This document shows, in pieces, positions 1-63,662 of a stretch of 64,000 nucleotides of DNA. The notes beneath the pieces are model-generated. The model saw only the letters and a list, made by a program, of their open reading frames with translations, had not been told where the DNA came from and searched no databases. The translations under genes were made by a program, and so were the position numbers. Origin of the DNA: Aptenodytes patagonicus (lineage: Eukaryota > Chordata > Aves > Sphenisciformes > Spheniscidae); contig NC_134970.1 of the NCBI RefSeq assembly GCF_965638725.1, positions 3,911,001 through 3,975,000 on the forward strand, written 5' to 3'. Numbering within the stretch: the first letter of the stretch is position 1; every line of letters starts with the position of its first letter.

Positions 1-445
1 TCTAAGAGAGAATCATTAAATAGTAGAATTGTATTAACCGAGAGAAGCCAGAGAGACTCTGCGGGGATGGGAGGCAGACTGTTGCTGCTTGGTGACCTCT
101 GGACGTGTGGATCTGTGGCTGTTGTCCTCCCGTGGGGGACGTGGAAAAGGAGGTAGAAGTCTTCCTTTTTGGATGCCACTAGAAACAAAAGTCTTATCAG
201 GTGGAAAAAGATGGGGCTGCTGTTCGTCCACTAGCCTGATTTGTCAAGAAGAGCCGTCTGCCGCTGCCTCCTGCTAGCAGGAGGGCTGGGGGGCACACAG
301 AGCTTGTCCGTACAAAATTTTTTTATATATATAAATGAGTTTTAATTTAAGAGTAAACTGGTTTGGTTTTCACACCGAAGAGTCCCGCTGCTGGGAGAAT
401 CAGAAGACCGTATGACGTTGCAATAAAGTATTTTAAACAAGTATG
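1..445 (+). other. CCND3: Probable end of CCND3 3' UTR
   Basis: No coding exon is visible here. A canonical AATAAA lies at 422-427 and is preceded by AT-rich sequence (318-355), as expected for the end of a 3' UTR on the + strand. The assignment rests on synteny: in human 6p21 the gene tail-to-tail with BYSL is CCND3 (cyclin D3, the CDK4/6 partner in G1), and BYSL is on the minus strand just to the right. No cyclin sequence is present to confirm it. Confidence 0.5.
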
Positions 446-2079
446 AACGCCTCGAGAGTTTCCCTTTGCGCTCCGTGCTGTGCCTTGGGCCGCCCAGGGA
501 AGACCTCGGCCTCTTCTTCCCTCACAGGGCTCCTGCCTCTGCCCCAAATCGCTCTGGGGTGGGACCCCCGTCAGCTGGAGGATCCCCTCGGGCAGCTCCC
601 GGAGGCTCCAGCCCTGCGTTTCCCCGGGGCCGCAAGAGCAGGATGAAATGGGGAGCGGGCAGGCAGGACGCCCCCCAGCCAGCTCCAACCCCGCGGAGAG
701 GTGGAGGGGAGATGCTGCAGCGGCCGAGGGACGCGTTGCACCCGCCGAGGCCCCGGGGCGGCTCGCGGATGGCGGTGGACGAACGTGGAACCGAACGCCT
801 TCCTGCAGGCAAGGTGCCTGCCCGCAGAGCAGGCAGCGACTTCACGCCCCCGGCAGCTTTGAAGCCTCCCTCTCGCCGATGGGCGCTGCAGCAGCTCGGG
901 CGGTGCTGCAGGGTGGCGAGAGCGTGCTGGAAGCCCGGGCTCGCACGGCGCAATCTCTCGCGTTCATCAGCTTCTGGCTTCTTTAAAGAAAGGAGATAAA
1001 AATCAGGAAGCCAAGGAAAAGGCGCTGCGGCGCGCAACCAGCCCGGGCGGCCGGGCTTCGCGTGCTGCTCTGCTTCACGTGGCTTCTGCTCCCGCTGCCG
1101 TCACGGGAAAAGGTGCCAACCCTCCAGGGAAGCAAAGGCGGGAGGCAGCCGTCCTCAGCGCAACCTGCTGCCGTGGGAAGCTGCAGCGGCTTTTCTCCAC
1201 GGGCTGCACCAGCAGGACTTTGCGCTGGTTTCGGGGGCCAGGCCAGGTACTTGCACGCGCAAACCTTGCGGCAGCGCAGCGTCACCGTCAGCAATTTCCC
1301 CCGGGTAAGCGCGGCGCCTCGTGGGACACGGGAGGAAAAGCCCCCACTGGGTTTTCCAGCGGAGGTGCCACGTGTGCGTGGGCGGGTTGCCGCGAGCAGG
1401 CCAGGCACGTGGCCTCGATGGCCCAGCGAGGACAGCGGTGCCGGGGCTTCACCAGCCTTGCTGAGTAGAGGTACACCCCGAGGGGCAGCTGGGGAAGGGA
1501 ACGTTTCGGGAAAATCCCTGGGGAAGGGGGATGGCAGGCATTTTGGAGGCAGGGGGGTGGCGGGGAAGGCTTCCAGCACTGCCGGGCTGCTCTTGCCCTC
1601 GCCTCCGCCCACGCACACGCTCCCCGTGGTGTCCCGGCTCAGGCCCTGCTGCCGGCCAGCGACAGCTCCGCAGCCCGCTCCTGCCTGGTGACAACCAAGC
1701 CCTCGGGAAACCCTCAAGGACCTACAGGAGTGTTTCCCCCGCCCTGCCCCGAGAGCAGTTTTTTGGCTCTGGGAACAGCCTGGGGGGCCCAGCCCTGTCC
1801 CCCCGCCCGCCCCCCCTTTGCCCCACCGCACAGGGGCTGCTCAGGGCAGAGCGCAGGGAGGGACGAGGGGTTGCACAGGGGTCCCTCCTCCCTTTGCGGT
1901 CGGGGGGGGGGACCAGCACCGGCAGCACAGACTCTGCAGCTCTGCGAGAACCCCGGGGCCGGTGGCTTTGCTCTGCCACCTGCTGGGGACAGGACAAGGT
2001 GGGGCGGGGACAAGAGTAGGACGGCGCAGGGATGCGACCCCAGAGAGGTGCAGCGGTGGGGCAGAACTGCCCCTGACTG
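446..2079. other. CCND3-BYSL intergenic spacer, no gene seen
   Basis: GC-rich stretch between the two converging 3' ends. Several long open frames exist on both strands (for example about 983-1831 on the minus strand), but they are low-complexity Pro/Gly/Arg/Ala frames produced by GC-rich sequence and match no family I recognise. I see no RNA gene or mobile element. Confidence 0.6.
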
Positions 2080-2096
2080 ACAGACACGCCTTGGGT

Positions 2097-2102
2097 TTTA
2101 TT
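2097..2102 (-). promoter_or_regulatory. BYSL: BYSL polyadenylation signal
   Basis: TTTATT on the + strand reads AATAAA on the minus strand, about 270 nt past the BYSL stop codon. No better signal lies between it and the stop, so the BYSL mRNA should end near 2080. Confidence 0.75.
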
Positions 2103-2368
2103 TTCCAACACAGGAACAGGCCAAACCCTCCCGGGTGCTGGTGGCACCGGGTTCCCCGGTGGGACAGGGGCTGCCCTGCCCCGTGACGAGCAGCGCAGGG
2201 AGCACGGTCCAGCTCTACGGACACAGCCTGCCCCCGGCGCCCGCTCGGAGCAGCAGGATCCCAGGACGGATGCTCCCACACGGCTCCGCTCACGCACCGG
2301 GCTCCCAACTGCATCCAGCAGCGTCCCAGGAGCAGGGCGGGCTGCTGCTCTTCCCTGCCTCTCCCTGC

Positions 2369-5178
2369 TCACTCCATGGCCACAGGCTGCTGCCCCTCCA
2401 CATCCCGCGTCTTGGAGTTCGCCAGCTCCCTCCGGATCTCCGGTGAGATCTGCGGATGGCTGTGGAACTTGAGCAGCTCGAGCAAAGCCTCCTTCTGCTC
2501 CGAGGAGAGGTCCTCCTTGTAGCGCTGGGCGAAGGCCAGGAAACTCTGGTGCCACAGCACGGGCAGGACCCGCTGGTCCGTGCGGAAGGCCAGGAAGTGG
2601 AAGACGAGGGCATCCACCACGCGGAAGGGCAGGGCGTACTTCTTGTCGATGAGCAGCCGGAGGAAGATGCTGTTGGCGCCGCTGTACTGCATCTCGGCGA
2701 TCTTCAGCATGGCCGCGCTGCGGGGAGGGAGGGAGCAGCGAGGTGAGGGCAGGGCAGGCGGGAGCCACGGGGCGGCAGGCACCCAGACAGAAAGATGACA
2801 AACCCAGTGCTGAGCCCTGAATCTCAACCCCGGAGGGAGCTGAGCGAACCCCCCCACCTCGGAGGTGCCGGAGAGGCTGAGGGACAGATCCGAGGCGTTG
2901 CACCGGTGTCCCTAAAGGAGAACCTCTCCCCGCCACAGCTTCCCAGCACGTTACCTGGAGTGGAGGACGGGGATGGAGCACTTGGTGAGGATGCTGCCAA
3001 TGATGATGGCCTCCCGCAGCGTGCAGGTCCCCGACTCGCACAGGGGGATGAGGATCCCTGCGGAGGGGGAAGAGTCAGGCACCGCCTGTCTTAAATCGCA
3101 GCAGGCAGAGCCGCGGGACACGGGGCTCAGCCCCTTCTATCCCAGGACACATCTGACCCCAGGAAATAACAGCTCCTCCACCAGCTGCCGTTACAGGGGT
3201 CGCAGCATCTCCCTGCCACGCAACGAGCCCCAAACACCCTCAGGTTGCCAGACGAGAACGAGATCGGACCCGAGACAGTTCGTAACCTGCCATCAACCTC
3301 CAAAAGAACCCAAATACCTGCCAGCACTCGCTGGCAGCACCTGCGTAAGCCTACGGCACGCATCACCCTTCCACCCCAAATGCCGCAAATGGGCCCCTGG
3401 GGCTTTGGAAGCTGCCTCGTCCACCGAGGCGGAGTCCCTGCATCTCTTTCACGTCTCCTCCTCCCCACTGAGCCCCCAGGGCCACACCACGCAGGGCACA
3501 GTGTGCCGTCACGCTGGGCAGTGGTGGGCAACACGTGCCCCTGCTGAGCCCCCCAGATGGCGAGAGGCTCCCAGGGACGAACGGCAGCCCTGCAGGGAGC
3601 CCCTACCTTTGAACCAGGCTGCCGGCTTGAACAGAGCCTTCTTCAAAGCCATGTAGAGGTGAAAATTGAGGCGCTTGTACTCAGCGATGTCATCCCTGAC
3701 CCGCGGCAGCAGCACCAGGTTGTAGAACCGCTGGGCCATCCTCTCTTTCAGGTTGGATGAAAATATCCTGGGAAAAGCAAAGCACAAAGCGAGGTGTGGA
3801 GAAGGGAGCAGGACACAGGTTGGTATTTTGTAAATCTGGTTCCAGTTATGGAAGGAAAAAGCTAAAAAACCCTACATCAGCATCTCCCAGAGATGATCTT
3901 ACCTGGTGGCTTGGTACATGGCAGCTGCTGTCCACGTCTCCGGCTCTGTGATGTAGAGGATCTGCTCCCAGTTGGACAAGGCAGGAATGATTTTAAATGC
4001 CTTGGGGAGTTTCCCGCTCCTGTATTTGGAGAGCACCTTAAAAGACATGGATACAGGCCGGGCCGTGACATATGGGCGCTGACAGCAGGGCTGCGGGACT
4101 CGTCTCATGACCGTGAGAACGTTTTCCCCTCCCTTAGCACCTCTGGTAAGAAAGGACCATCCCAGGTCCTAAGAAAGGACCATCCCAGGTCCTAAGAAAG
4201 GACCGTCCCAGGACCACCCTGAGCACGGTGCTCAGGAGATTGCCACTCAGAAACTCTCTGGGCCCTTCAGGGGCCGATACTACGCAAACTGCAGTTAATA
4301 CACAGAACCGCCTGCACAGGGCAAGGAGGGAGAGCGGGCACAGAGGCTGCGGGGCTCAGCGTGGCTTTCGCCGAGCCCCGGGGCAGAGCTGCTTTGGCCT
4401 TACCTCTCTGACGCCCCTGTAGACCTCCAGGACGCGGGGATCGAGCTGGGGCATGGGGCAGCCCGATACCTCTGACAGCGCCGTCTCCACCTCCGTCTGC
4501 TTCTCCGTGATCTTCTCCATGATGATGTCCGCCAGCGTGCGCCTGGGGCCAGCGCAGGAGGGACGTGAGTCCGGGGCCGCGCTGGGGGGAAGCATCGCCC
4601 GCCGCCCTTGGCCCAGCCCCTTCTCCTGCCGCCTCCTCACCTCAGCGGCGGGTTCTTGTTCATGAACATCTCGATGGCCTTCTCGTCCTCGGGGTCCACC
4701 GCCACCTCCCCGCAGTACTCCCCGCTCCGTCCCGCCGCCGCCGCCGCCTTCTCCAGCGAGGGCCACTCCTCATCGTCCTCCGAGTCCGAGCCGGGGCCGC
4801 GCACCGCCGGGCCTGCGGGGGAACGGCGCCGGCTGAACCCAGGGCCTCGCACCCTCCAGGCCCCGGGGCGGGCTGGGGGCGAACCGGGGGCTCACCCAGC
4901 GCCGTGCTGCGCTGCCTGGGGGCGGCGGGCGCGCCGGGGCCGTGCTCGGCCTCCAGCTCCTCCTGCTGCCGCCGCGCCTGCTCCAGGATGCGCCGGGACA
5001 GCCGCGCGTCCACATAGCCCTCCCCGCCGCCGCCCTCCGCCTCCTCCTCGGCCCGGCCGCCGCGCCGCTTCCCCCGCGCCGTGGGCCGCGGGGCCGCCTC
5101 CTGCAGGATCTGCTCGGCCAGCGGCAACGCGGGGCCAGGGCCGGGGCCGGAGCCCCGCGCCCGCCGGGCCTTGGGCAT
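2369..5178 (-). CDS. BYSL: Bystin, 40S ribosome biogenesis factor
   Basis: Bystin (yeast Enp1) binds pre-40S particles in the nucleolus and cytoplasm and is needed for 18S rRNA processing and small-subunit export. Seven coding exons: 5178-4896, 4812-4641, 4542-4404, 4036-3903, 3767-3607, 3057-2955 and 2717-2369. They total 1341 nt, in frame, for 446 aa (human 437), each with GT/AG borders. The start MPKARRARG matches the human MPKFKAARG. The N-terminal 130 residues are charged and variable; the bystin domain follows ([67 protein letters not shown]). The acidic stretch [15 protein letters not shown] is conserved. The protein ends EGQQPVAME. The start codon faces MED20 across 155 bp, the same head-to-head order as in human. 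Nothing looks broken. Confidence 0.97.
4147..4215. repeat. 23-bp tandem repeat, three copies, BYSL intron 3
   Basis: A 23-bp unit starting TAAGAAAGGACC repeats at 4147, 4170 and 4193. The first two copies are identical and the third differs at two positions. It lies inside the intron between BYSL coding exons 3 and 4, away from splice sites. Confidence 0.9.
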
Positions 5179-5333
5179 GGCGGCGGGGCCTGAGGAGAGC
5201 TGCTACCGCCGCCGCCCGCTCCGCCACCGGCCGCGCGTGCGCCTCGACTCCGCCCCTTCCGGCGGCGCGTCGGCCCCGCCCTTTCCGGCGGCGCTTCCGT
5301 CCCGGCGGGGCGGCGGCGGCGGGCGGGCGCAGC
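5179..5333. promoter_or_regulatory. BYSL-MED20 bidirectional promoter
   Basis: 155 bp separate the two start codons, so both 5' UTRs and the shared core promoter fit here. The stretch is very CpG-rich and has no TATA box. It holds a GCGCGTGCGC word near 5233-5242, resembling an NRF1 site, and ETS/GABP-type CTTCCGG or TTTCCGG words at about 5256-5262 and 5281-5287, with a third TTCCG near 5295. This mix is typical of housekeeping bidirectional promoters. Factor binding is inferred from motifs only. Confidence 0.8.
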
Positions 5334-8300
5334 ATGGGGGTCACCTGGTGAGGGCGGGGGGGCTCCCCGCCGGTGGGAGCCGTCCCGGGGGTGCCGTCGT
5401 GGCGGGGAGGGAGCCGGGAGTAAGCGGCCGGTCGGGCCCGGTGCGCCGCCGGCGGGTCTCTGACTCTTCCCCCCCCCCCGCCCCGGTTGCAGCGTGGCGC
5501 AGGTGCCCGTGGCGGAGGGGAAGAGCGTGCAGCAGACGGTGGAGATCCTGACGCGGAAGCTGGAGCTGCTGGGGGCCGAGAAGCAGGGGACCTTCTGCGT
5601 GGACTGCGAGACCTACCACACCGCCGCCTCCACCATCAGCAGCCAAGGTCAGCGCCGGGAGAGCCCCGGGCCGCGCCGCGCCGGGCCGCGCCGGGGGGGT
5701 CGGTGCTCTCAGCCGGCCCGGAGCCGCCTCTTCTCTCCCCAGCGCCGTTTGCCAGCTCCTTAACCTGGCGCCCGGGGGGAGGCTGCTGGTGAAACCGGGC
5801 TGCGGTGACAGCCCGGCCTCCCGCGGGACGAGCGTCTGCTGCGGGTGAGGCCGCGGCTCCGTCCGGTCCCGGGAGGGCCGAGGCTTTTCCTGCAGGTCAT
5901 CGCCGTTTTATTTACCGCCGTTCTTTTTGTTGATGTGGGGAACGGGCGGCCGTCTCGCTGCCTGCAGAACGCCTTCGCCGCCGTGGAAGGGGCGTGTGCC
6001 CCGGTTCCCGGTGGCCCCTTCTCTCCTCCGGGAGAAGCAGCGTCCCTGTACGCGGTCCTGGGGGAGCCGGGCAAGGTCGGCCTGAGGCACGGACGGGTCA
6101 GCCTGCCGTGGCCGATGCCGTGTGCCGGGGCTGCCCCGCAGCAAACGCCTGGCCGTGCTGGTCTGCCCGCTGGCAGCCGCTGTTCTCCCCGTTCCCTGCG
6201 TGCCCTGGGGACGGCCGCGTCGCGGGGGGGGGAGAGCCCTGCCTCGAGGATTCCCGCTCCAGCCTTAGCAGCCGCGTCGGGTACCTTTGCTGTCGGCGTA
6301 TTTTTCCCTGAAGCTTCTTAAAATGTTGCTTCTGTCCCAGTCGCTTCGGGGGCTGCGTTTCGCTCTGGAGAGGACGGGCGCAAGTCTCCGGGCAGCGTCT
6401 GCCTGCCCTCGCCTCCAGGAGGGCCGTCGCTCGAGGGCAGGCGATGGCAGCCGACCTACAAGCTGGAGGCGGTAGCGGGGAGCAGTGCCGGCTGCCAGGG
6501 CGGTGGGGAGCAGCTCGGGGGGGGGGGTTTGAGGCGTGAGATGACCCAGCTGTTTCCAGGGGGTGTGCTCGGAGGACCCCGAATCCCCTCTTGAGGTAGC
6601 ACGGCCTAAAACGGTAGCTCAAAGGTACGGCGTGGCCTGCTCGCCTCAAGGGGCTGTTCCGGCCTCCTCCTTTCTCCTAACCGCCTGGATTTTCACGTCA
6701 CCTAAAAACGCCAATGTCAACATCACCGTGGTGGCTCTGTGGCTGCAGAGGTCAGCACGGAGCCCGCGCAGCCTCAGGGCTCTGCTCAGCCAGTTCATCC
6801 GGACAGATCCATCTGAAGCTACTAGAGCAGCTCTTTGCTGCTTTTTCTGCAGCTGGAACTTGCACGGCCGCGTGCGTGGAAAGGCTTTTTTGACCTGTGC
6901 GGATAAATGAGAATTGTTTCCAGTTTTTAAGGCGTGGTAGAAGCCAGGCGCGTCCCCTCTGGGCACCCTGTTTTCCAGAGCGTGTCCCAGCACATCCTCC
7001 CCAGGCAGGACTGGTGGGTGAGTGGGAGGAGAGGCAAAGCCCAGCCTTGTGACCCTTCCTCCGGTGACCGTGGGCAGGAGGACAGTCAGCGGATGCCCAG
7101 CCCCATGTTTGGGGATGGGAGGTGGGTGCTCTTTGCTGACCGCCCCCCCACCAGTCTGCTGGGGATCCCACGTCCAGCTCACCCTCTGGTCTCTGAGTCG
7201 TGCTGGCGCGTTATCCCCGGGCTGCAGAAGATTTCTTTTTTTCTTCCCCTTTTACTTTAAATCTTAAGAAGGAAATACAAACTGTTCACTGAACGGCCGG
7301 ATAACGTAAAGCACGTATGAGCAGTACAAGGACCCTGGAATTAAAGCAACGAGGAGGACAAGGGAAAAACCAGATGCTTCTTTAACGCACATACAAGTGC
7401 AGGACTGTTGGTTTTACAGCCCAAATACCATTGCTCTTATTCCAGGGCAGACAGGCAAGCTGATGTACGTGATGCACAACTCGGAATATCCCCTCAGCTG
7501 CTTCGCTCTCTTTGAAAACGGTCCCTGCCTCATAGCAGACGCCAACTTTGATACCCTTATGGTGAAGTTGAAAGGCTTCTTCCAAAACGCCAAGGCGAAC
7601 AAGATAGAGAGCCGGGGCACCCGCTACCAGTACTGTGACTTCTTGGTGAAGGTGGGCACGGTCACAATGGGGCCCAGTGCCCGTGGGATATCTGTGGAGG
7701 TAAGAATCGCCTTTGAAGGGTATGAGATACAACTACAGACAGGGAAATCCCATGTTGGAGGCTAGACGAGAAATCCCCCGTCCCTTCTGTGTCTCGATTG
7801 TGTTGCTCGTTGCTGGTAGTTTGTACTAGGTGCATTCATGTATGCAGCAGGCAGGGTATTTATCTCCTTTTCACAACAAGGTTTAATTCAGGCAGGTACT
7901 TTGGGGCTCAGCTGCAGCTACAGAAAAGCCTGTCATTGAAGTGTCAATAAACAAAACCCTGAAGGGATGCCATCAAACTGAAAAGCTGCTTAAAGTCCTG
8001 ATGGACAACACTAGTAGCGTACTTCAGGTTAATAAGCATACCAAGGGGGGCAAAACAACCTCTTCAGCTGCTAATTGGATGCTGATTTGGGTTTTGCTTT
8101 CTTTCCGCATCTCCAGCAGACAATGGCGGGGCTGAGAGCCCGGCCCTCCTGCCCCAGGTTCTGCTCGCGCGGTGTAGAGATGGTCTTCTCCTCACCAGAG
8201 AGCTTTTGGCAGGCGCCAGTCCTACCCCATGGCGTGCCGACCTGGATTGTTGCACCGTGGGGTGCACCGCGGGCTCGAAGCCTGCCATCAAAGCGCTTCC

Positions 8301-9649
8301 GCGCTCTCCGCTCAGTGCCGTGACTGCTGATGAGGCTCGAGAGCTTCGGCTGCCAGCTGCCGACGGGCATTTCACAGGGTGGAGGCTGGGCTGAAGCAAA
8401 CTCTAAAGGGAGATCCTTCGGCGTACACGAAGGGGCATGGGAGGGTCTAGGAAGGCGTTTGGGGAGATGGTTGGCTGAGTGCAAGCTCAGCAAGCTTGCT
8501 GAGTGCAAGCTTGTGAGTCGAAGGCTCACAAGCCATGGACAAGCCTCAGCTGGGCTGAAAAACATCTCGGAAAAAGACAGGGGGCTGGGCTGCGCTGGTA
8601 CGGGAAGGGCAAAGCAGAGTAGGTCAGATTCCAGACATCTAGACATATTGGTGCCTAACAGTCTTCAAGATAGCTGAGAATTAGATGCTTAAAAGTTCTT
8701 CAAAATCAGAGCATGCGCTTTTCTAAACACACAAATCCTATTATCTGATATACAATTAATAATCACGCTGCGTCTACTCAGGCAGGTGTTCCTAGCCAGC
8801 AGGGACGAGGGTTGAGAAATGGCTTATTTCTTCACTGCAATAAACACAGATGTTGTAGCGTCAGCGTTGCTATTGACCTGGGGTTAAACTTGTTTTACCC
8901 TAAACTCGAGTTCAGGACCAGATTTGCCAGGCGGTCTGGCTGCTTCTGTTTTAGTTTAGTAGTTTTTTCGGGGTTTGCATTAGGACCTACTCCTGATTTA
9001 AGATCAGGCTCATGTTTAGTAAAACGCTTCCAAGTCCTTAAGTCCCAAGGCTTTTCCCAGTACATTCCTGAAAGACGTCACAGCCACACGAGTCACCGAC
9101 CTACCAGCATGTGGGAATGAAGTTTGGGTTTGGACGGGGTAAAGTTAATGTGGCGTTTGAACCAATGTCCCAAGACCTCCATTGTTGGGGATTTAATAAA
9201 AGCAGTGCCCTTACAGGGTACGTTTTACCTCCCCTTCCCTTTTGAAGGGATTGCTTGCATGTTCCCAGCATGTCCTGTTCATTTGTATTTGTCCATCCTC
9301 GTTATATGCTAAATATTCTCAGATGTTTTTACAAAAAGCTCGCTCTGTCTGGTGAGGAGAGAGGAAAGCGCGTTGCCTCCTGTGTGGTTATTGCCCCTGC
9401 CATGAGCTTCAGGGCTGTGGTTTCTGTTGCCAGGTGGAGTACTGCCCCTGCGTGATAGCCAACGACTGCTGGAACCTGCTCATGGAGTTCATGCAGAGCT
9501 TCATGGGGAACCACACTCCCGGAATCCCGTCCGTGTTTGGCACCAAGCACGACAGCATCTACAGCCCAGCGGACACGATGGTTCAGTACATGGAGCTGTT
9601 CAACAAGATCCGCAAGCAGCAGCAGGTGCCTGTAGCGGGGATCAGATGA
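5334..9649 (+). CDS. MED20: Mediator complex subunit 20 (TRFP)
   Basis: Subunit of the Mediator head module, paired with MED18, which links activators to RNA polymerase II in the nucleus. Four coding exons: 5334-5347 (only 14 nt, MGVT plus two bases of Cys5), 5493-5647, 7446-7699 and 9434-9649. They total 639 nt for 212 aa, exactly the human length. Recognisable stretches are [74 protein letters not shown] and the end [20 protein letters not shown]. All junctions have GT/AG borders. The start is fixed by the tiny first exon, which alone supplies MGVTC in frame. The gene shares its promoter with BYSL. Confidence 0.97.
5648..7445 (+). other. MED20 intron 2, no gene seen
   Basis: GC-rich on the left and more balanced towards exon 3. 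I find no second gene, RNA gene or mobile element. Confidence 0.6.
8474..8532. repeat. Nested direct and inverted repeats in MED20 intron 3
   Basis: GCTGAGTGCAAGCT occurs twice (8474-8487 and 8498-8511). Between and overlapping the copies is the perfect 12-bp palindrome AGCAAGCTTGCT (8489-8500). It is followed directly by an 8-bp inverted repeat, CTTGTGAG at 8510-8517 and CTCACAAG at 8525-8532, with a 7-nt loop. The rest of intron 3 (7700-9433) shows nothing gene-like. Confidence 0.85.
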
Positions 9650-49349: not shown

Positions 49350-49582
49350 CCTCGCACGGTGACATCCCCTTCCCGGGGCGGGGGACCTGACAGGCTTTGG
49401 GGGGGGTGGGTCCTGCCAGCAAGGAGGACACACGCTCCCGTGGTCACCCCGCTTGGCTCACCGGTATCTGGGGACAAGTTTTACGGACGAGCGCAGCAGC
49501 TGCCGGTCGGCCGGAGGCCCCCTCGTCCCCTGCGGCCTCCCGGGCCGCCCAGCCCCGCGCCTGCCGCCGGGACTCACCGCCG

Positions 49583-49864
49583 TTACGGGACGGGCTGCGG
49601 CGCCATCAGGTCGATGTCCGTCAGGTTCCGGGCGACCCAGACTCCGGCGGCGAAGAGCCCCAGGTTCACCAACAGGTTCCTGAAAGAGAAACCGGCAGCG
49701 CTGGCTCCCGCTCACCGCCCGCGGCCCGGTTCCCGTCGTCCCCCGTCCCCCGCCACCGACCTGCGGAAGTCGTTCCGGTCGGTGGCGAAGCGGTAGGCGC
49801 TCCGCAGCCACCCCCGCAGCCCCTGCGGCGCGGCCGCCGGCCCGCCCGCCGCCGCCGCCGCCAT
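49583..49864 (-). CDS. TOMM6: Mitochondrial import receptor subunit TOM6 homologue
   Basis: Small tail-anchored subunit of the TOM complex in the outer mitochondrial membrane; it stabilises TOM40-TOM22 assembly. Two coding exons, 49864-49761 and 49679-49583, give 201 nt for 66 aa (human 74). The N-terminus is alanine/glycine-rich and shorter than in human. The conserved core YRFATDRNDFRRNL leads into the membrane segment LVNLGLFAAGVWVARNL, and the end is TDIDLMAPQPVP. A donor-like GCG/GTGAGT lies 5 nt after the stop (49574-49579), so the 3' UTR is probably in a further exon, as the distant poly(A) signal also suggests. It converges on USP49. Confidence 0.95.
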
Positions 49865-49960
49865 GCCGCCGCCTCGCCTCACCCTGCTCCGCCGCCGCGC
49901 CGCGCCGTCACTTCCGGCGCGCGGCAGGGAGGGAGGGCGGGCGGGGGGCGCGCGCAGCGC
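49865..49960 (-). promoter_or_regulatory. TOMM6: TOMM6 promoter with ETS-type site
   Basis: CpG-island sequence directly upstream of the TOMM6 start. CACTTCCGGCGC at about 49909-49920 is a strong ETS/GABP-type word about 50 bp from the ATG, common in nuclear genes for mitochondrial proteins. The island continues past 51 kb and could also serve the + strand gene. Confidence 0.65.
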
Positions 49961-53079: not shown

Positions 53080-54676
53080 GTGATGCTGGAGCTGGATGGA
53101 GGCAGGCGCTGGGGGTGTGGGCTTGCAGGGTGGCTCTGTGCCCTGGGGGTGCAGGGTCCCCCCTTGCACGGTGGAGCGGCAGAGGTGGGACGGAGCAGGA
53201 ACGGGGGCTGCAGCCAGAGGCTGATGCGGTGCAGAGTTTGCAGGTCTTGCATCGAACTTTTAAACCAGGTTTGCTGAGAGATCTTAGATAACCGGAGGAA
53301 TTTGGCTGTCCCTGGTTATCAGAGGCCGGTTTGAGAAGAGGTGCTGCCTGGGGTCTGTGCACCCCTCGGGAAATGAGGGGGGGGGTGGTGGGTGTCTGTC
53401 GGCCCGTCTGTGCTTCCCCTGTTAGCGAGTGTTTATTTTCAGCAGCTGAACTCAGTGCAAGGAGACGCTCTGCAAACAGGAGTAAAAGCTCCTGGAGGGT
53501 GTTGCAGCTTGGCTTTCAAGGAAGGGAAATCAAGTGCTCAGGAGGGCTCCAGGGGAGCTCCCTGGGGGGGAATTAGCACCTGGCTGCCGCCAGCAATCGC
53601 TTGCTATTGGTTTGCGTTCAGCAAATGCGGGGGGTGGGGGAGATCCGCCAGCCCCAGGGGCTGCGGGGAGCTGGCCAGGGGTGCGGGGGTCTCTCTCCGA
53701 CATTCCTCGGTGCTTCATCTCTCTGGGCGGGCGAGCTGCTTTCCAGGGCCACCTGGGACCCGATCGGCCAGGTAAAACCTCAATTTGGGGACAAAAGTGT
53801 TATTTCCTTTCTTTTACTCTCCCGGCTGCCCTAGCGTGGTCCCTGCTGACCTGTGAGACAAAGAGTGGTGCCTTGTGCTGTCATTAACTCCTGCCAGCCT
53901 GGGTCCGGGCTGCGAGTGTTAACTGATGGCTCTGGGAGCCCAGTTTCGGGTCAGAGCACGCCCTGCTCGCTGGGACTGCACCCCTTGCGATAAGCCCTGA
54001 TCTCTGTCTGACCCACGCAGCCGCTGCGGCCCGGCGGTGGGGAAGCCACAAAGGTTGTCCCCCAGGGAGCCTGGGAAATGCCCCTTTGCATCTGCAGGGT
54101 TTGAGCCCCCTCGCCCCTACAGAGAGCCCAACCCGTGCCCGTGTCAGGCTGCCCGTGGGAGCAGCAAGGGGCCGGGACGCAGCCTGGAGTGGGGCTTGCA
54201 CCCCGCTGCAGTGCCCGGCTGGCCGGGGGCACCCGGCGGGCGGCTTGTCCCTGCTCCGGCGCCAGGGAGGGAGAGCGGCTCGGCTGGGATCCCGTGGGAC
54301 AATAGCAGGGTGGTGCCGCTGGGTGCTGTGACCTGTGCGGTTTGCACAGGGAGATTGAAACGTGGCTGCGAGCAAGCGGAGGCTCGGGTAGGCAAGGGGA
54401 GCTGCTTCGGGCAGGGTGTGGGGGTACCTGGTGCCGAGGGAGCAGCCCCGGCACTGCCAGCACCCATGTCCCCTCCTGGGACGGGGAGTGGGTCCGTGTG
54501 GCCCCCAGCTCACCCCATCTCCTGCGGGTCCTCGCTGGCAGTGATGCCATGTGGCTCTGGAGGTGACCCAACTCAGCGGAGCCGGGAGCGCTGCAGGTGG
54601 CACCTGGCCGGCAGCCGTCCCCGAGCCGGCAGTGACGTCCTGTGGGACGTGCTCACCCTCGCCTCTCCCTTTGCAG

Positions 54677-57600
54677 CTGGGTGCTGACCTCCCGGGGGCC
54701 TTCTCCTCACTGGGACCGGGGCCAGGACAAGCTTTTGGCGAGATGTTCTCACCGCTGGGCTGCAGGAGGAGCTTCCCCAGGGAGGTAAGTGGTTTTGCGA
54801 CCCTCGTGCTGCCACGCAGCTGGAGCTGCCAGTGTGGTTGGGAGTGGAGGAGCTTTGCGGGGCAAGGATGGGTGCCCGCTGCTCCATCGCTCGGGATGCC
54901 AAGGAGCCAGGAGAGCATCTCCGCAGTATGGGGAGGAATTGGGAATCGTCTGGGACCTTGGCCGGGAGAGGAGGGCGGACGGGCTCCTGGCTCCCTGTGC
55001 TGGCTCAGCATCCAGCCGGTGCAAGGGCGAAGGTGAGGGTCTCATCCTGCTTTCATCTCCCTGTGCCCTCTCTGCAGCCCAGTCCGTGGCAGGCTGGACC
55101 ACCGCCGCCCTGCGCTCACGGCCCCCAGGACGTCTGGGATGAGCCGCCCTGGGAGCACCAGCACGGGAGAGGCAGGAGCGGATGGCGCCCGGTAAGGGGG
55201 CAGGGGCTGGGGCGAGCAGCCGTGCAGCGAGGGGAGGCGGCGCTCTCAGGGTTCACTTACAAATCCAGGGTGGCCAAAACTGGGGGCTCCCCTAGGAGCA
55301 GGAGGAGCAGAAAGAGCTGAGGGCTGTGGCAGGGAGGGGGAAACGCAGCAAAACCAAAACACCCCAGCGAGCTGCCATCCTCACCGGTGGTGATTTGCTA
55401 TTGCAGCCCAGTCCCTGGGACCCCAGACCCTTCCCTGGCCCTGCCAACTTCCATGGGAATGAGGAGGACAGGAGATGGGCACCCCACGACTGTCCCCCGC
55501 TGCCCCCCTGGGACAATGGAGGAGATGACCGAGGACCTGAGGACTGCTTCAGAGAGGGCTGGCACTCGGTGAGGGGAGGGTGGGCTGGGGGGGTGGCAGC
55601 TGTGTGGCTATCCCCAGCGTGCCACCATCCTCACCGGCAGTGATTTGCTGTTGTAGCCCTGTCCCTGGGACTCCAGACCCTTCCCTGGCCCTGCCGACTT
55701 CCGTGGGAATGAGAAGGACAGGAGATGGGCACCCCGCGACTGTCCCCCGCTGCCCCCCTGGGATGACAGAGAAGACAACCGAGGACCTGAGGACTGCTTC
55801 AGAGAGGGCTGGCACTCGGTGAGGGGAGGGTGGGCTGGGGGGGTGGCAGCTGTGTGGCTATCCCCAGCGTGCCACCATCCTCACCAGTGGCGATTTGCCG
55901 TTGCAGCCTGGTCTCTGGGACCCCAGACCCTTCCCTGGCCCTGCTGACTTCCGTGGGAATGAGAAGGACAGGAGATGGGCACCCCACGACTGTCCCCCGC
56001 TGCCCCCTTGGGATGACAGAGAAGACAACCGAGGACCTGAGGACTGCTTCAGAGAGGGCTGGCACCCGGTGAGGGGAGGGTGGGCTGGGGGGGTGGCAGC
56101 GGCCGCAGGACTGAGGGCAGGGTGCAGGTGAAATGGGGCAGGGGCCATTCACTGCCCTGGTGACAAGGACAGCGCACGGGACAGGTTTCCCTGCACGGCG
56201 CTGGGAGCAGCAGCAGCCCAGCTTCTCCGCTCTGCAGTCACAGCATCCCCTGTCCTGCTCCGTGTCTAAACCCACCCCCTTCCCCGCAGGAGCTGCCGCC
56301 GTCCGGCCCCGGCTGCTTTGCCTGGCCTGAATTCCCCGGTGAGGAGCAGCACCCACCCTGGCCCCCCGCCAGCCTGCCAGGGTGGGTGCCTGTGCCGAGG
56401 GTGAGGGGCGTGGGGGGACCGCGCAGCTATGGGGTGGCGAGCAGGGGCGCGGGGGCCAGGCTCTGCTCCAGTGCACAGCCAAGGGGTGATGCAGCGTTGA
56501 AGCTGGCCCTACTCAGGGTCGGGGGGGGGGGGGGGGTTGCACCGGAGACCCCTTCCAGCCTAAATCCCCCTCCCTGGGGCTGCCTTTGCTCCTGCAGGGA
56601 GCGAGGCCGCTTCCAGGATGGCTGCCCGTCCTGGGGCTACCGTGGCCTGGGTGGGAAACACTGCCGACGCCTTCACCGTGGCCACCGAGAGTTAACCTTG
56701 GTCAAGCGCCTCCCGTGTCCCTGGCCCTCCAGAGGTTTGTGCCGACCCTGTATCGGCTGCGAGGGGCCCCACGCTGTGCTCGCCAGCATCACCTTGGGCA
56801 GAGCGAGCAGATTGCTCCCATTGTGTTTCTCGCTCCGCAGGGAATCAGCCATCCTCCAGGTCCTCTCCTTCCCACTCTGGGATGAGCCATCGGGGGGTCA
56901 AAGAAGAGCCGCAGCACCCTGATCCTCCCCAGCCACCTAGTTCCTTCAAAGGTGGTGCACAGAGCAGGGAGCGGATGGCTCAGGTTGTGGGTTTTTACCC
57001 CCCCCCTCCATCCCAGCACCCAGCAGTGACACGAGTTTGCACGGTCTGAGCCCCACGTGGTGCCGCCGTGCCCCTAACCAGCGTGGTTTCCCCCAGGGTC
57101 CGCCGGCGGTGAGCGGGAAGGTCCCAGAGTCCCCCAGACGGGCTGGCGCCCCTCAGAAGAGCCCAGCCGCTGATCCCCAGGCCCCAACAGAGGCTGCGGA
57201 GCCGGAGCAGGCAGCAGGAGCGACACCGGTAGGAGAGCACCCCTGTCCTGGGGGCAGGCAGGGATGCTCGCACCCCTGGAGGTGCCCGGCTCGGGGGTCT
57301 CTTCGGCTGGTGTAACGTCTTCCTTCTCTCTCTCATCCAGCCCTTTCGCTCTTCGCCTCGCTGTCTCTTTGCCAGGCACGGACATTTTCCTGACTATTCT
57401 CTGGGGCTGCAAAGCCCCGTGGTTTCCTTTGGGTTTTAGCACCCCGTCCGTCCCGTCCCCCAGCTCTTCTCACCAGGCCAGATGTGTCCCGGCCTCATGC
57501 CATTGCATGTCCCCAGGTCGAGCCGGGAGCCAGGCAGGAACCTGCGGGCAGCCACGGCCAGGGCCCCTCTGCTTCGGAAACGGAGCCAGCGCCGCCGGAG

Positions 57601-59789
57601 GAGAGCTCTGCCGAGACAGGGGAGCACCTTGAGGTATGAGCTAATGCGTGTCCTCTTCCCACCTAAAAGCAGCGCCCACGGGGAGGTGGGAGTTTGCAGT
57701 CCCCTTTGCAAACCTCTTTTTTCCCCTTGCCTGGGCGGCGTTGCCAGCCCTCGCCGTGGGCTCTGCAGTGCATCTGTAATGCTTTGCACAGGTAGAGCCG
57801 TGCAGCCAAAGTGTCCCTAAGGCTGGTGCAGGTGGCGGGTCGCATCCCCATAGTCCGACAGCCCCTCCGGAGCCTGCCGAGAGGGTCCACGCGGCGGCCG
57901 GCTCCGCTGGAGAGGTGGGTGCTGAGCTCTGCCCGCGTTCCCGGGGACGGCAGCGTCTGCCGAGCGGAGCTGGAGAAGCCGAGCCAGTGGCCCCCAGCCG
58001 AGGCGCGCAGGGGTCTGGGACCGGCCATGGGGTGGGGGGGCTCGCCCAAGGACCCTTTGAACCATGGGGCGGGAGCGATGCCAGGTGATGGGGGACGTGA
58101 ATTTGGCATTTCTGGGGACACTGGGGAGAAACCCCTCCTGGTGCTGGTGGCTGCAGGGCGAGAAGGGCTCTGCAGGGGCACATACGCTGTTGGGGGGTTT
58201 GTAGACCAGCTGCCCATGATGGGGCGGGTGTCGGCACGTGGTGGGCAGCTCCATGGCGTGTCCACCCCCCAGGGGAGAGCCCACCAAGGCCGCTGCTGCG
58301 GGCAGGGGTGTGCTAGCAGTGCTGGCTCCTGTGCGGCTGCTGCCTTCCTTCCCCAGCCACTTTCTCTCTCACAGCTTCTCGGTGGCCTTCAGCCATCCGA
58401 AAACTCGCAGGTCCTGCCAGGAGCTACCACGAAGCCCGACGCACAGCCCAGCCAGGCCGGCTCCGACGTCTGCGCAGCACCAGCGATCTCACCGGGGACC
58501 CGGCATCCTCCTGGGTCTGGTGAGACGGAGCCGGTACGGCGTTGGGGTGCCTCCACTCCCCCACACTCACCCCGAGGCGTCCCCGGGTCCCCATGGGGGG
58601 CAGGTGCCCTGGGCTCGGGGATACTGCCATAGCCCAGGAGCAGCGGAGTGGGATCCCTCTGGCTTCCCCGTTTGCAGGATTACTGGCTGGGGTTAAAGCG
58701 CTGCTTTGTCTGGAGGCAGAGCCCGTGTCAGCCCCGGTGCCGGCTGCGCCAGAGATGCTGATAAACGTGAGACAGCTGGGAGAAAGGCCAAAAAAATAAC
58801 TAGAGGCTTGAGAGCGTGCTGGAGCGTGAACAACCTTGGGACTCGAGCTTTAACGAAGCAAACGAGAGCATTGCAGAGTGGCTTAATTACTGCCTAATGG
58901 GAAGAGAAATCTGCTAGCGGGGCTCTCGGCGGTGATGCTGCCAGGGCTGGGGGCAGGGGGGGCAAGGGGCAGCTCCCGCACCCGACGGAAGGGTGGCAAA
59001 CAAGCACCCTGGGGAGCCAAGGTCCCAGCAGGTCCTCCCCGCAGGGTGACCAGTTCCTGGCTGGCAGTTGGTGCCAGCAGCCCCAGTTTGGCCCCAGCCT
59101 TGCCCGGTCTCTCTCCCGTTCGAAGCATCTGACCCTTCCTCACCTTTTCCACCGCCCAGGCTGCGGGCGGCCGGTGCCAGCTCTGCACCGCGCTCCCGGC
59201 ATCCTCCCCGGCCGGCGTGGACCTCCGCTCCGCCACCGTCCTCGCCAGGAAGGAGGAGATCGAGTTGGTGAGTCCCAGTGGCCCCCAGCTGAGGCGCGCA
59301 GGGGTCTGGGACCGGCCGGGGGGGGGGGGGCTTGCCTAAGGACCCTTTGAACCATGGGGCGGGAGCGATGCCAGGTGATGTGGGACGTGAATTTGGCATT
59401 TCTGGGGACACTGGGGAGAAACCCCCTCCTGGTGCTGGTGGTTGCAGGGGAAGGTGCTTGTGGGCGAGAAGGGCTCTGCAGGGGCACATACGCTGTTGGG
59501 GGGTTTGTGGACCAGCCCTGGGGGAAAAAATATTCCTGGAGGGCTGCACACTGCTGGTGGGGAGGTTTTGGGGTGCCGCATGCTGACCCGTGCCGCTCCC
59601 CTGCAGTCATACCAGCAGTTCAGCCTGACCATCGCGGTGGTGGCCACGATGCTGCTGCAGAAGGAGCCCTCCATGGAGGCGGCGCTGGGGCTGGCGCTGA
59701 GGGCCAACCTCCGCCAGGGCCGGATCCATCACCTCCAGGAGCTGGAGGACTTCATCAACAGCTACGACTCGGCCACCCTCAGCCGCTGA
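54677..59789 (+). CDS. Periphilin-1-like protein, 5' end unresolved
   Basis: Periphilin is the RNA-binding subunit of the HUSH silencing complex; its C-terminal helices bind TASOR. Exons: 54677-54784, 55078-55191, 55407-55568, 55657-55818, 55907-56068, 56290-56381, 56598-56734, 56841-56983, 57097-57228, 57517-57633, 57792-57914, 58375-58519, 58678-58766, 59160-59267 and 59607-59789. They total 1977 nt for 658 aa plus stop, with no internal stop. The last two exons (RSATVLARKEEIELSYQQFS, LLQKEPSMEAALGLALRANL, LEDFINSYDSATLSR) match the PPHLN1 end (SKTKEIEQVYRQ, IEKDPSLEKSIQFALRQNL, LKHFIAEYDTST). The three 162-nt exons share RGNEKDRRWAPHD with PPHLN1 RGDESGYRWTRDD. The middle is Pro/Glu/Ser-rich and disordered (SSRSSPSHSGMSHRG). 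The first in-frame ATG is 54743, but earlier exons are likely. The donors at 56381, 56734 and 56983 are less certain; 56951 is an alternative for the last. Confidence 0.8.
55362..56099 (+). repeat. 250-bp tandem array carrying a triplicated exon
   Basis: Three tandem copies of a 250-bp unit, each holding intron, acceptor, a 162-nt phase 0-0 exon, donor and intron. Exons start at 55407, 55657 and 55907. The second and third exons differ at only a handful of positions and the first is more diverged (NGGDDRGPEDC versus DREDNRGPEDC). All three stay open and keep their splice sites, so each adds 54 residues. The acceptor is TTGCAG in copies 1 and 3 and TTGTAG in copy 2. Confidence 0.93.
57985..58210 (+). 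repeat. Intronic duplicate, copy 1
   Basis: About 226 bp starting CAGTGGCCCCCAGC, in the intron after exon 57792-57914. It is nearly identical to 59276-59516, apart from a G run and a roughly 16-nt insertion in the second copy. Confidence 0.93.
59276..59516 (+). repeat. Intronic duplicate, copy 2
   Basis: Second copy of the segment at 57985-58210, same orientation, about 1.29 kb downstream. It starts 9 nt after the end of exon 59160-59267. It includes a 13-nt G run at 59318-59330 and an extra GAAGGTGCTTGTGG block. Confidence 0.93.
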
Positions 59790-60144
59790 GGGGGGGCCAG
59801 GGTGAGCAGCCGGACACCCCCCCTTGCCAACCCGGGTTGGGGGGGATGATGGGGGACCGTGTCGGTGCATCAGGGTGCTGGTGCTGAGCCCTCAGGTCAA
59901 GGTGGTACGGACGTGTTGGCGCGGTCCCACCCTCCCTTGGAGATGGAGGGAGGGGGTGTGTGCTTAGTTTTATCCCTGCCCAGACCTGTATGTGCAGCAA
60001 AAGGGGGAGCTGGTTTTACTGGAGGGTGGTGGGAGGGATGAGCGGCTGCGGGGAACTCCCCTCCGCCCCGGCTCCTCGTTCCGTTCCTGGTTCACGGGGA
60101 TGTGCCCCGAAACCCCGGGGATTGTTCTTGGTTTTAAATCTAAA

Positions 60145-60150
60145 AATAAA
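60145..60150 (+). promoter_or_regulatory. Periphilin-like polyadenylation signal
   Basis: AATAAA about 355 nt past the stop at 59787-59789. It faces the PRICKLE4 signal at 60407-60412, so the two genes are tail to tail about 250 bp apart. Confidence 0.8.
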
Positions 60151-60949: not shown

Positions 60950-63662
60950 CTAGGACACGCTGCAGTGCTTGCTGCTGCCCCGTGGCTTCGCCGTCCTGCT
61001 CCCAGCCCTCCCCAGGGGCTCCCTGCCCAGGGAGCTCATCCCAGGCTTGGGGATGGGCTTCCCGAAGAAGAAACCCTCTTCCTCCGAGTCCGAGTCCGAA
61101 GATGAAGAGCAGGTGGGACACCAGGAGTCATCCTCCTCCGTGATGTCCTGTAGGTCGATGTCCTCCGGCCGTGGGCTGTATCGGGCAGGGGACATGCCCG
61201 CTTGGAAATGTGGGTTTCCATGGCCTGTGGGTGTTCGTGGGTCAGGGCCCCCCAGAACTGGATGGTTGGGGGCTCCAGGCCCATTTGGACCCTCTGTGCT
61301 GGGCTGGGGGCCGGAGGGGTGTCCGGCCGGTGGTCCCAGCATCCCTGCGTTCCCAGCATCCCTACGCCACTCCTTAGCGGCTGCTCCGTGGTCCTCCAGG
61401 CTCCTGAACGCTGGATGCATGGAGGCCTGATCCAGAAACGCCTCTGGAAGAAGGAAAGCAAGGATGGGTGAGGAAGGGGAAGGCCGAGCCTGCCCTGCTA
61501 CAGCCCCTCGTGCAGGGGAGGCTGCCCCGGGATGCAACGCAGGGTTGTACCAACCAAACCCCAGCTGCCAGCGCTCACCCTCCTGTGGGAGCTGGGCTGG
61601 GGGCTCGTCGCTGCTGCTCCAGCCCTGGGCTGTACCCATGCAATGTACCCCATAAAGTACCCAGGGGCTGAGCAGAGCCTGGTTTTACTCCCACTCCCCT
61701 CCCGCCATGTAGCAAGCGGAGCAGTAGGATCCCTACCAGCCCCTTCCACCCGCTGCCTGCAGCCCCCGGCCGCCGAGGTGCTGCCTGTCCCCGGCACGGT
61801 CCTGCTGGCGGGGCCGGCTCGGGAGAGGGGCGTCGAGTCGGGGGACGGGGCTGAGGCGATAGCTGAGTCGGAGGAGTCGGAGGCGGTGGAGGATGCATCC
61901 TGTCCCAGGCTACAGGTCTCGGAGCAGAAGAGCCGGCCGCGGCGGGAGGTGAGGGGCTGCCCGTGCAGCGGCTTTCGGCAGAGGCTGCAGCAGAAGCAGG
62001 CGGCTCGGGCATGCCAGTGCAGCCCTTGGTGGGTGGCCTCCTCGCTGTCGACACCTGAGGGGCAACCGCGGGTGAGGGGGAGGCTCTTCCCATCGCCGTG
62101 TGCCAAAACCCATCCTCCGCACCGAGCCACGGGGCTCTGGCTCAGCAGCCCTTCCAGCCCACATCCCGCCTGCCCGGGCAGGGAAGCCCCGCTGCACCCT
62201 GCCCCGGAGAGGGGGGGACAGGGGCCGTACCGATGGGGTCCCCGCAGGCCTGGCACAGCTCGGCGAAGAGGCTCTCGAAGCAGCCGCGGCAGCAGGGCCG
62301 GCCGCTCTTCATCACGTAGCGCTGCCCGCGCAGGGGCACGTCGCACTCCAGGCAGCAGAAGTGCTCCAGGTGCCAGCGCCGGCCCTCCGCTTCGATGCAC
62401 TCCTCCATGAAGATCAGCTGGAGGGGGGGAAACAACCCATCCTCTAAGCACCCAGCTAGAAAACCCGTAGCCCGGAGGATGCTTTGCTGTGCCGAGGAGA
62501 GAGGAGAAGCCCCCGTGCCTTGGCACGGGCATGGGGCTCTCTGTAAGGCTCAGGAAGGAACCTTTCCTCCTGCCCATCAGCGGCTCTTGCTGCATTTGCA
62601 GCCCCCAGCCAAGCACAGGAGCTTTTAACAACAGCAAAAGGGAGGTAAAAGCCTCTCCCCTGCCCGGCACCCACCTGGTCGCAGGAGGCACAGCGGGGTC
62701 GGAAGAGCTCGGCGTGGTGCCGGCCGCAGTAGATCCTCCCATCCTGCTGGAAGTAGATGAGGTCCACCAGGGGCTGGTGGCAGAAGTGGCAGGAGAAGCA
62801 GGATGGGTGCCAGAACTGGTCCCCCAGCCGGGATGCCGAAATCCCCGGGTCCCCTTTGTTCAGCTTCCTGCCGCACTGCAAGGCAGAGGGACGCGGGGTT
62901 TGGGATCAGGCTGGCTTTTGGGGACAGGTTCCCACTGGGGAATGGGTGCTGCCCGGTTCTGGGCGGGGGATGCCTCACCTTCTTGCAGGGACAGCCATGG
63001 CAGGGACCCGGCACGGGACATGCCAGCCCCTGCCCCAGGGCCTCCCGTCTCCGTCGGGCGCTGAACGCCCGTAGCTGCCTCCTCTCCTCCTCTGCGAGGT
63101 CGGGGCAGTACCGCTCCTGCATGGGGAGGCGGAGGTGAGAGGATGCACGGTGGGTGAAGCCCAGGGTGGGCAGCACCCAGCAAATACATGTCTTACATCG
63201 CAGTCCTGAGGAGGCAGCTGCTGCAGGAGGGCTCTGGCGCGGAGCCGGATCCTGTCGGCGGGAGAAGCAGGCTGCGGCGAGCGGGTGCCGAAGCACACCG
63301 GGACCTTGGGATGTCGCATGGGAGAGAGAAACACAAGCAGATTTTAAAATCTGCTTGGGGAATTAAGCTGCCTTGCTTCAGGTTGCTAAAATGCGTGTTT
63401 CATCTCGGGGCTGGGGGTGCTGGGCTGCGGGTACCACCCGTGGATGGCACCTGCAGGGCTGAGGGAGAGCGGGGAGCAGAGGGAGCCCCGCCAGACCCGG
63501 GGTGCTGCCCACCTCAGAGGGAGCGGGGTCCACAGGGGGCTCCAGGTACTCTTCCAGGGCACAGCCGGAGTCACTGTCGGATGAGGCCGGCGGGAGGCCG
63601 GTGGCAGTGCTGCAGGGGGGAGGCTCGTCTCGCTGGGGCCATGCGGGGCTCGGCAGGGACAT
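60950..63662 (-). CDS. PRICKLE4: Prickle-like protein 4 (PET and three LIM domains)
   Basis: Prickle proteins act in planar cell polarity at the membrane. Coding exons: 63662-63513, 63304-63197, 63116-62979, 62875-62675, 62417-62231, 62054-61737 and 61443-60950. They total 1596 nt for 531 aa; the human form is much shorter (about 344). Residues about 51-130 form the PET domain ([37 protein letters not shown]). LIM1 runs from CKKCGRKL to RPRCASCDQ and LIM2 from [16 protein letters not shown] to [13 protein letters not shown]3 is in the sixth exon ([25 protein letters not shown]). The tail has [19 protein letters not shown], close to human [17 protein letters not shown], and ends KHCSVS, a CaaX farnesylation box like CIIS of PRICKLE1/2. 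The start at 63662 lies 4 nt inside a clear acceptor (CTCTCCCCAG), so a non-coding 5' exon lies further right. The last donor (61737) was chosen because it alone keeps the frame. Confidence 0.95.

Follow-up and report, generated by a model that had tools for sequence, protein, structure and literature searches.

A second periphilin gene in sauropsids, located between TOMM6 and PRICKLE4 in the king penguin

The HUSH complex, of which periphilin is a component, silences newly integrated, transcribed retroelements and has been studied mostly in human cells. Human is known to have a single periphilin, and no human gene is known between TOMM6 and PRICKLE4. In the king penguin, Aptenodytes patagonicus (assembly of 1.35 Gb in 618 contigs), a periphilin paralogue had been predicted in this very interval, within a stretch of 64,000 nucleotides hereafter called the window (G000:C22:3911001-3975000). 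Is there such a gene, where does it come from, and could its product take part in HUSH? The neighbourhood supports the predicted location, with TOMM6 recognized by eye upstream on the minus strand (49572-49866; the tested frame hits no Pfam family) and PRICKLE4 by LIM domains encoded in two overlapping minus-strand frames (62145-62905). Neighbouring genes were named from domains and gene order, and it is on these grounds that we take the LIM gene convergent with the second periphilin to be PRICKLE4. FRS3, carrying an IRS-type PTB domain, lies about 12 kb past PRICKLE4, so that the flanking domains on this contig (C22) comprise zf-UBP/UCH, LIM, IRS-PTB and aspartyl protease, in addition to TOMM6 read by eye.

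The gene is genuine. On the plus strand, an open frame of 633 codons runs from 54677 through 14 exons to a TGA stop at 59787-59789, and all 13 introns are of the GT-AG type. The original prediction of plus-strand exons joining in frame without a stop holds, but its counts of 15 exons and 658 codons do not. Exon 11 (57792-57914) is extended in the database models of the emperor penguin (P0093) and of a pelican (P0005), which is possibly one source of the surplus codons. Exon 1 (54677-54784), whose portion upstream of the probable start ATG is probably 5' UTR, is followed by the Pro/Trp-rich exon 2 (55078-55191; phase 0-0) and by three tandem copies of one exon, namely exons 3 (55407-55568), 4 (55657-55818) and 5 (55907-56068). 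Exon 6 (56290-56381) ends in phase 2; its donor was set at 56381 because exons 7 and 8 are open only with that donor. The arginine-rich exon 7 (56598-56734) is entered in phase 2 and left in phase 1, as is exon 4 of PPHLN1, and exon 8 (56841-56983), which has a weak donor (GTTGTG), is entered in phase 1 and left in phase 0, as is exon 5 of PPHLN1. The Spheniscus humboldti model P0001 uses the same frames. Exons 9 (57097-57228), 10 (57517-57633), 11 and 12 (58375-58533) then lead to exon 13 (59160-59267), whose final codons (RSATVLARKEEIEL) open the periphilin hairpin. The remainder of the hairpin and the stop are found in exon 14 (59607-59789), whose first codon and entry phase coincide with those of the final PPHLN1 exon, and an AATAAA read directly on the plus strand at 60145-60150 is a possible poly(A) signal. 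These GC-rich exons can be read through in several frames, and the openness of a single frame thus proves little alone.

Translation most likely starts at 54743, inside exon 1, yielding a protein of 611 amino acids, since P0001 (the nearest relative of the window's protein is from S. humboldti) begins at the equivalent position and aligns over 611 columns with 93.3% identity. Related starts (MFPGRG or MFPRRG) open five of the six turtle models among those listed. Several bird database models extend upstream of 54743, and seven N-terminal extensions from database models were used as tblastn queries to probe for upstream coding sequence. Among the matches listed, the extension of P0043 matches 54418-54528 (E 5e-12) without any stop and that of P0005 matches 54549-54599 with an internal stop; a start upstream of 54677 is possible.

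The C-terminus identifies the family. Its last 66 residues match Pfam Periphilin_C (PF25234) with an E-value of 5.8e-12 (46.2 bits for a cut-off of 27), the cut-off being also exceeded by the three orthologues tested (P0001, P0107 and P0118), and the human Periphilin-1 chain 6swg_A matches the king penguin C-terminus with an E-value of 5.4e-8. These matches bear out the three C-terminal motifs that had been predicted to follow PPHLN1. The hairpin is about 40% identical to PPHLN1, and a profile of 11 turtle and crocodilian members aligned to a profile of 10 PPHLN1 sequences gives 44% identity over 71 columns (E 2e-13). The AlphaFold model of the Humboldt penguin protein P0001, computed with 31 aligned relatives (32 of the 116 C-terminal search matches described below), ends in two long helices with pLDDT predominantly over 90, whereas 431 of its 610 residues fall below 50, pointing to a disordered front part. 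When this model was submitted to Foldseek, both periphilin chains of 6SWG came first among 187 matches, with a TM by target of 0.87 and an rmsd of 1.2; the modest best E-value (2.1e-3) is explained by the mostly disordered model. The top matches in Pfam, to 6swg_A and in Foldseek are thus all periphilin, and a best match in another family, named beforehand as what would speak against the prediction, did not occur. In the 6swg_A alignment, human Leu326 and Leu356 are identical in the king penguin, while Leu333 is replaced by Met and Ile337 by Leu. According to a study of human periphilin in which these four residues were mutated, they have roles in the TASOR and dimer interfaces (PMC7544229). 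Judged from the alignment, the hairpin retains its TASOR and dimer contact residues, two being identical and two conservatively replaced. For the bird sequences in the 32-row alignment (20 rows), mean pairwise identity is 84.5% in the hairpin and 52.1% in the remainder.

The N-terminal part is of another kind. Its composition was measured before the last 80 residues, on rows among which isoforms of one species may recur. Tyrosine has a median of 0.42% (maximum 2.1%) in 99 bird rows and of 2.3% in 19 non-bird rows, vs a median of 5.96% (minimum 3.0%) in the 120 PPHLN1 rows listed out of 980 matches; median arginine is 7.59% in the same bird rows and 12.42% in the same PPHLN1 rows. The N-terminal part of the second periphilin is predicted to be disordered, as in PPHLN1, but in birds it has less tyrosine and less arginine than that of PPHLN1. 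Sequence homology of the front part with exon 4 of PPHLN1 was unsupported in five of five proteins (1000 shuffles each), and the front exons therefore correspond to those of PPHLN1 by phase only. It looks as if birds had largely rewritten this part of the protein. In the king penguin, exons 3, 4 and 5 represent three copies of a 250-nt unit of exon plus intron (window 55362-56111); the exon copies are 90-95% identical among themselves, and 25 of the 35 differing codons, over all three pairings, are non-synonymous. A motif-based count of these copies in orthologues was dropped as too motif-dependent, with zero in 55 of 118. A distinct 107-nt repeat with 96% identity is found in two introns of the gene (58029-58135 and 59319-59425).

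How widespread is this gene? A search with the C-terminus, whose candidates need shared exact words, returned 626 candidates, of which 116 share the C-terminus at an E-value of 0.01 or better; the names shown, one per row, belong to birds, crocodilians, turtles and one lizard. A search from the protein of that lizard retained 9 of 144 candidates and added two further squamates, for a total of three; in squamates the hairpin has changed fast. Neither these two word-dependent searches nor the 120 PPHLN1 matches listed of 980 showed a member from mammals, amphibians or fish. The bird orthologues carry automatic record names such as "basic salivary proline-rich protein", "collagen alpha-1" or "uncharacterized", three turtle rows read "periphilin-1-like", and "Periphilin-1 C-terminal domain-containing" is also encountered among sauropsids. 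These entries are orthologues whose origin, linkage and function are, as far as seen, unstated in the entries themselves, and through the second periphilin many of the proline-rich, collagen-like or uncharacterized bird records receive a name. The duck orthologue is named microtubule-associated protein tau and that of the goose AlgP-like. No galliform (chicken order) name appears in the 116 rows, each showing one name, though duck and goose are present, which may reflect loss, missing annotation or chance. Full-text literature searches found no paper on a periphilin paralogue, and the second periphilin of birds, crocodilians, turtles and some lizards is hardly studied so far.

As an overall explanation, we consider it likely that the gene is a PRICKLE4-linked ohnologue of PPHLN1 whose hairpin joins HUSH and whose N-terminal part has been altered. 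An ancestral tail-to-tail pair of PPHLN and PRICKLE would have been duplicated along with its chromosome block in early vertebrates; sauropsids would have retained both periphilins, and mammals would have retained PRICKLE4 and lost its periphilin partner. The C-terminal hairpin would dimerise with itself or with PPHLN1, and its binding to TASOR would bring the second periphilin into HUSH or HUSH2. In birds, a disordered, Pro/Trp-rich and nearly tyrosine-free N-terminal part would replace the Arg/Tyr-rich, self-associating and RNA-linked domain of PPHLN1, and the resulting complex may capture transcripts differently or less.

Binding to TASOR appears reasonably probable for the second periphilin, and the protein probably enters HUSH because its hairpin keeps the TASOR and dimer contacts. 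It is likely that the product still assembles with TASOR and differs in RNA handling or self-association. In human cells, silencing requires the hairpin that binds TASOR as well as the N-terminal domain rich in Arg and Tyr; exchanging Tyr for Ser leaves an activity of 20% on day 7 and of 50% on day 21, and exchanging Arg for Lys leaves less than 10% at day 7 and about a quarter at day 21, the latter variant being also less expressed (PMC7544229). A modulatory subunit rather than an equivalent silencer can be envisaged, because the bird N-terminal part is nearly tyrosine-free, unlike the domain needed for human silencing, yet we would hold this role to be plausible and somewhat short of an even chance. 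Still more tentatively, sauropsids might run HUSH in two forms, containing either PPHLN1 or the second periphilin (the latter as homodimer or as mixed dimer with PPHLN1); the rapidly changing N-terminal part of the second periphilin, in which an exon is duplicated in tandem, would select the silenced transcripts or brake PPHLN1-HUSH, a layer that mammals would have lost. A precedent for a paralogous subunit forming a second HUSH complex is TASOR2 in HUSH2 (PMC11754731), although TASOR2 is paralogous to TASOR, whereas the gene of the window is paralogous to periphilin.

The alternative that survives best is a genuine ohnologue of periphilin that has left HUSH, its hairpin pairing either with itself or with some other coiled-coil protein, and its disordered part serving another role. 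The tyrosine medians given above, which show that the Arg/Tyr-rich domain is not kept, speak for it, as do the roughly 40% identity of the hairpin to PPHLN1 and its fast change in squamates; since the residues contacting TASOR and the dimer partner are nonetheless identical or conservatively replaced, and the predicted fold matches the TASOR-bound form, we regard it as unlikely. A second periphilin combining a TASOR-binding fold with a different disordered part would be a natural experiment on the role of that part and would make the human HUSH parts list incomplete for sauropsids, and it may be relevant to transposon control in birds.

The origin of the gene can be read from its linkage, introns and phylogeny. 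A whole-genome Pfam search gave two matches over the cut-off, the second periphilin (C22) and PPHLN1 (C1), and one below; the latter, on C6, was rejected as a chance match (21.8 bits, one internal stop, reading as non-coding). PPHLN1 maps to C1:33182218-33252572 with eight exons, counted from the earliest that the probe detected, which need not be the first of the gene. Its intron phases are 0,0,2,1,0,0,0, and those of the second periphilin 0,0,0,0,0,2,1,0,0,0,0,0,0; the last intron lies at the same codon in both genes, and the order of phase 2 then phase 1 is common to them. About 11 kb past PPHLN1, on the opposite strand, PRICKLE-type LIM exons (C1:33263674-33265293) presumably belong to PRICKLE1. 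Each periphilin is thus arranged tail-to-tail with a PRICKLE gene, PPHLN1 on C1 and the second periphilin, with PRICKLE4, on C22. FRS3 has a single further match in the genome, which lies at 40.02 Mb of C1 and reaches 85% over 66 residues. Three families are consequently shared by the same two contigs, as expected after duplication of a block or of the whole genome. A tree (62 columns, midpoint root, unsettled bootstrap) was built from 29 family members out of 118, 15 PPHLN1 rows out of the 120 listed, and the human stretch; in it, a branch with a support of 100/100 separates the second-periphilin family from PPHLN1, human included.

That the second periphilin is a paralogue of PPHLN1 is practically certain, and the duplication very probably predates amniotes, as part of a block. 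The gene resembles Periphilin-1 (PPHLN1; PF25234; 6SWG) by its hairpin with TASOR and dimer contacts, its long disordered front, its last intron, the succession of phases 2 and 1 and a convergent PRICKLE, whereas it differs by a hairpin of about 40% identity, a front without demonstrable similarity and with little tyrosine, 14 exons including a tandem exon, and its location on another chromosome. Linkage, last intron and phase order are observed, and from them we infer a 2R date, which would make the gene a 2R ohnologue of PPHLN1. It would have been lost in mammals, as suggested by the human locus, where no such gene is known, and by one marsupial study. The listing of the locus in that study places USP49, TOMM6, PRICKLE4, FRS3 and PGC together, without mention of any further gene (PMC3414760).

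A later duplicate of the sauropsid line, landed beside PRICKLE4 by chance, would fit the searches above, in which no mammal, amphibian or fish member was seen (word-dependent searches and the 120 matches listed of 980), but the convergent PPHLN-PRICKLE arrangement at both loci, the FRS2/FRS3 connection of the same two contigs and the grouping of human with sauropsid PPHLN1 in the tree make it highly improbable. A pseudogene, a retrocopy or an accidental open frame in GC-rich DNA is hardly credible, for although several exon frames are open by chance, the spliced frame is intact, orthologues have a conserved C-terminus and an intron is common with PPHLN1. In particular, a recent retrocopy, already judged improbable in the original prediction, is ruled out by the 13 introns and by the last intron position and 2-then-1 phase order common with PPHLN1, next to a hairpin identity of about 40%.

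Other PRICKLE-type sequences were also detected. The LIM query from PRICKLE4 gave 10 matches in the genome, among them C8 (58%, 98.1 bits) and C1 (59%, 93.1 bits). The former is a PRICKLE-type LIM exon at G000:C8:17061177-17061410, and its score slightly exceeds that of the match on C1, which counts against the favoured origin. The whole-genome Pfam search found no periphilin exon on C8, where a periphilin copy formerly next to this LIM exon may have disappeared. At the other end of the window (1-9000), MED20 is found at 7310-7762 (Pfam Med20), together with a bystin-like minus-strand reading made by eye, for which two minus-strand frames tested gave no Pfam family.
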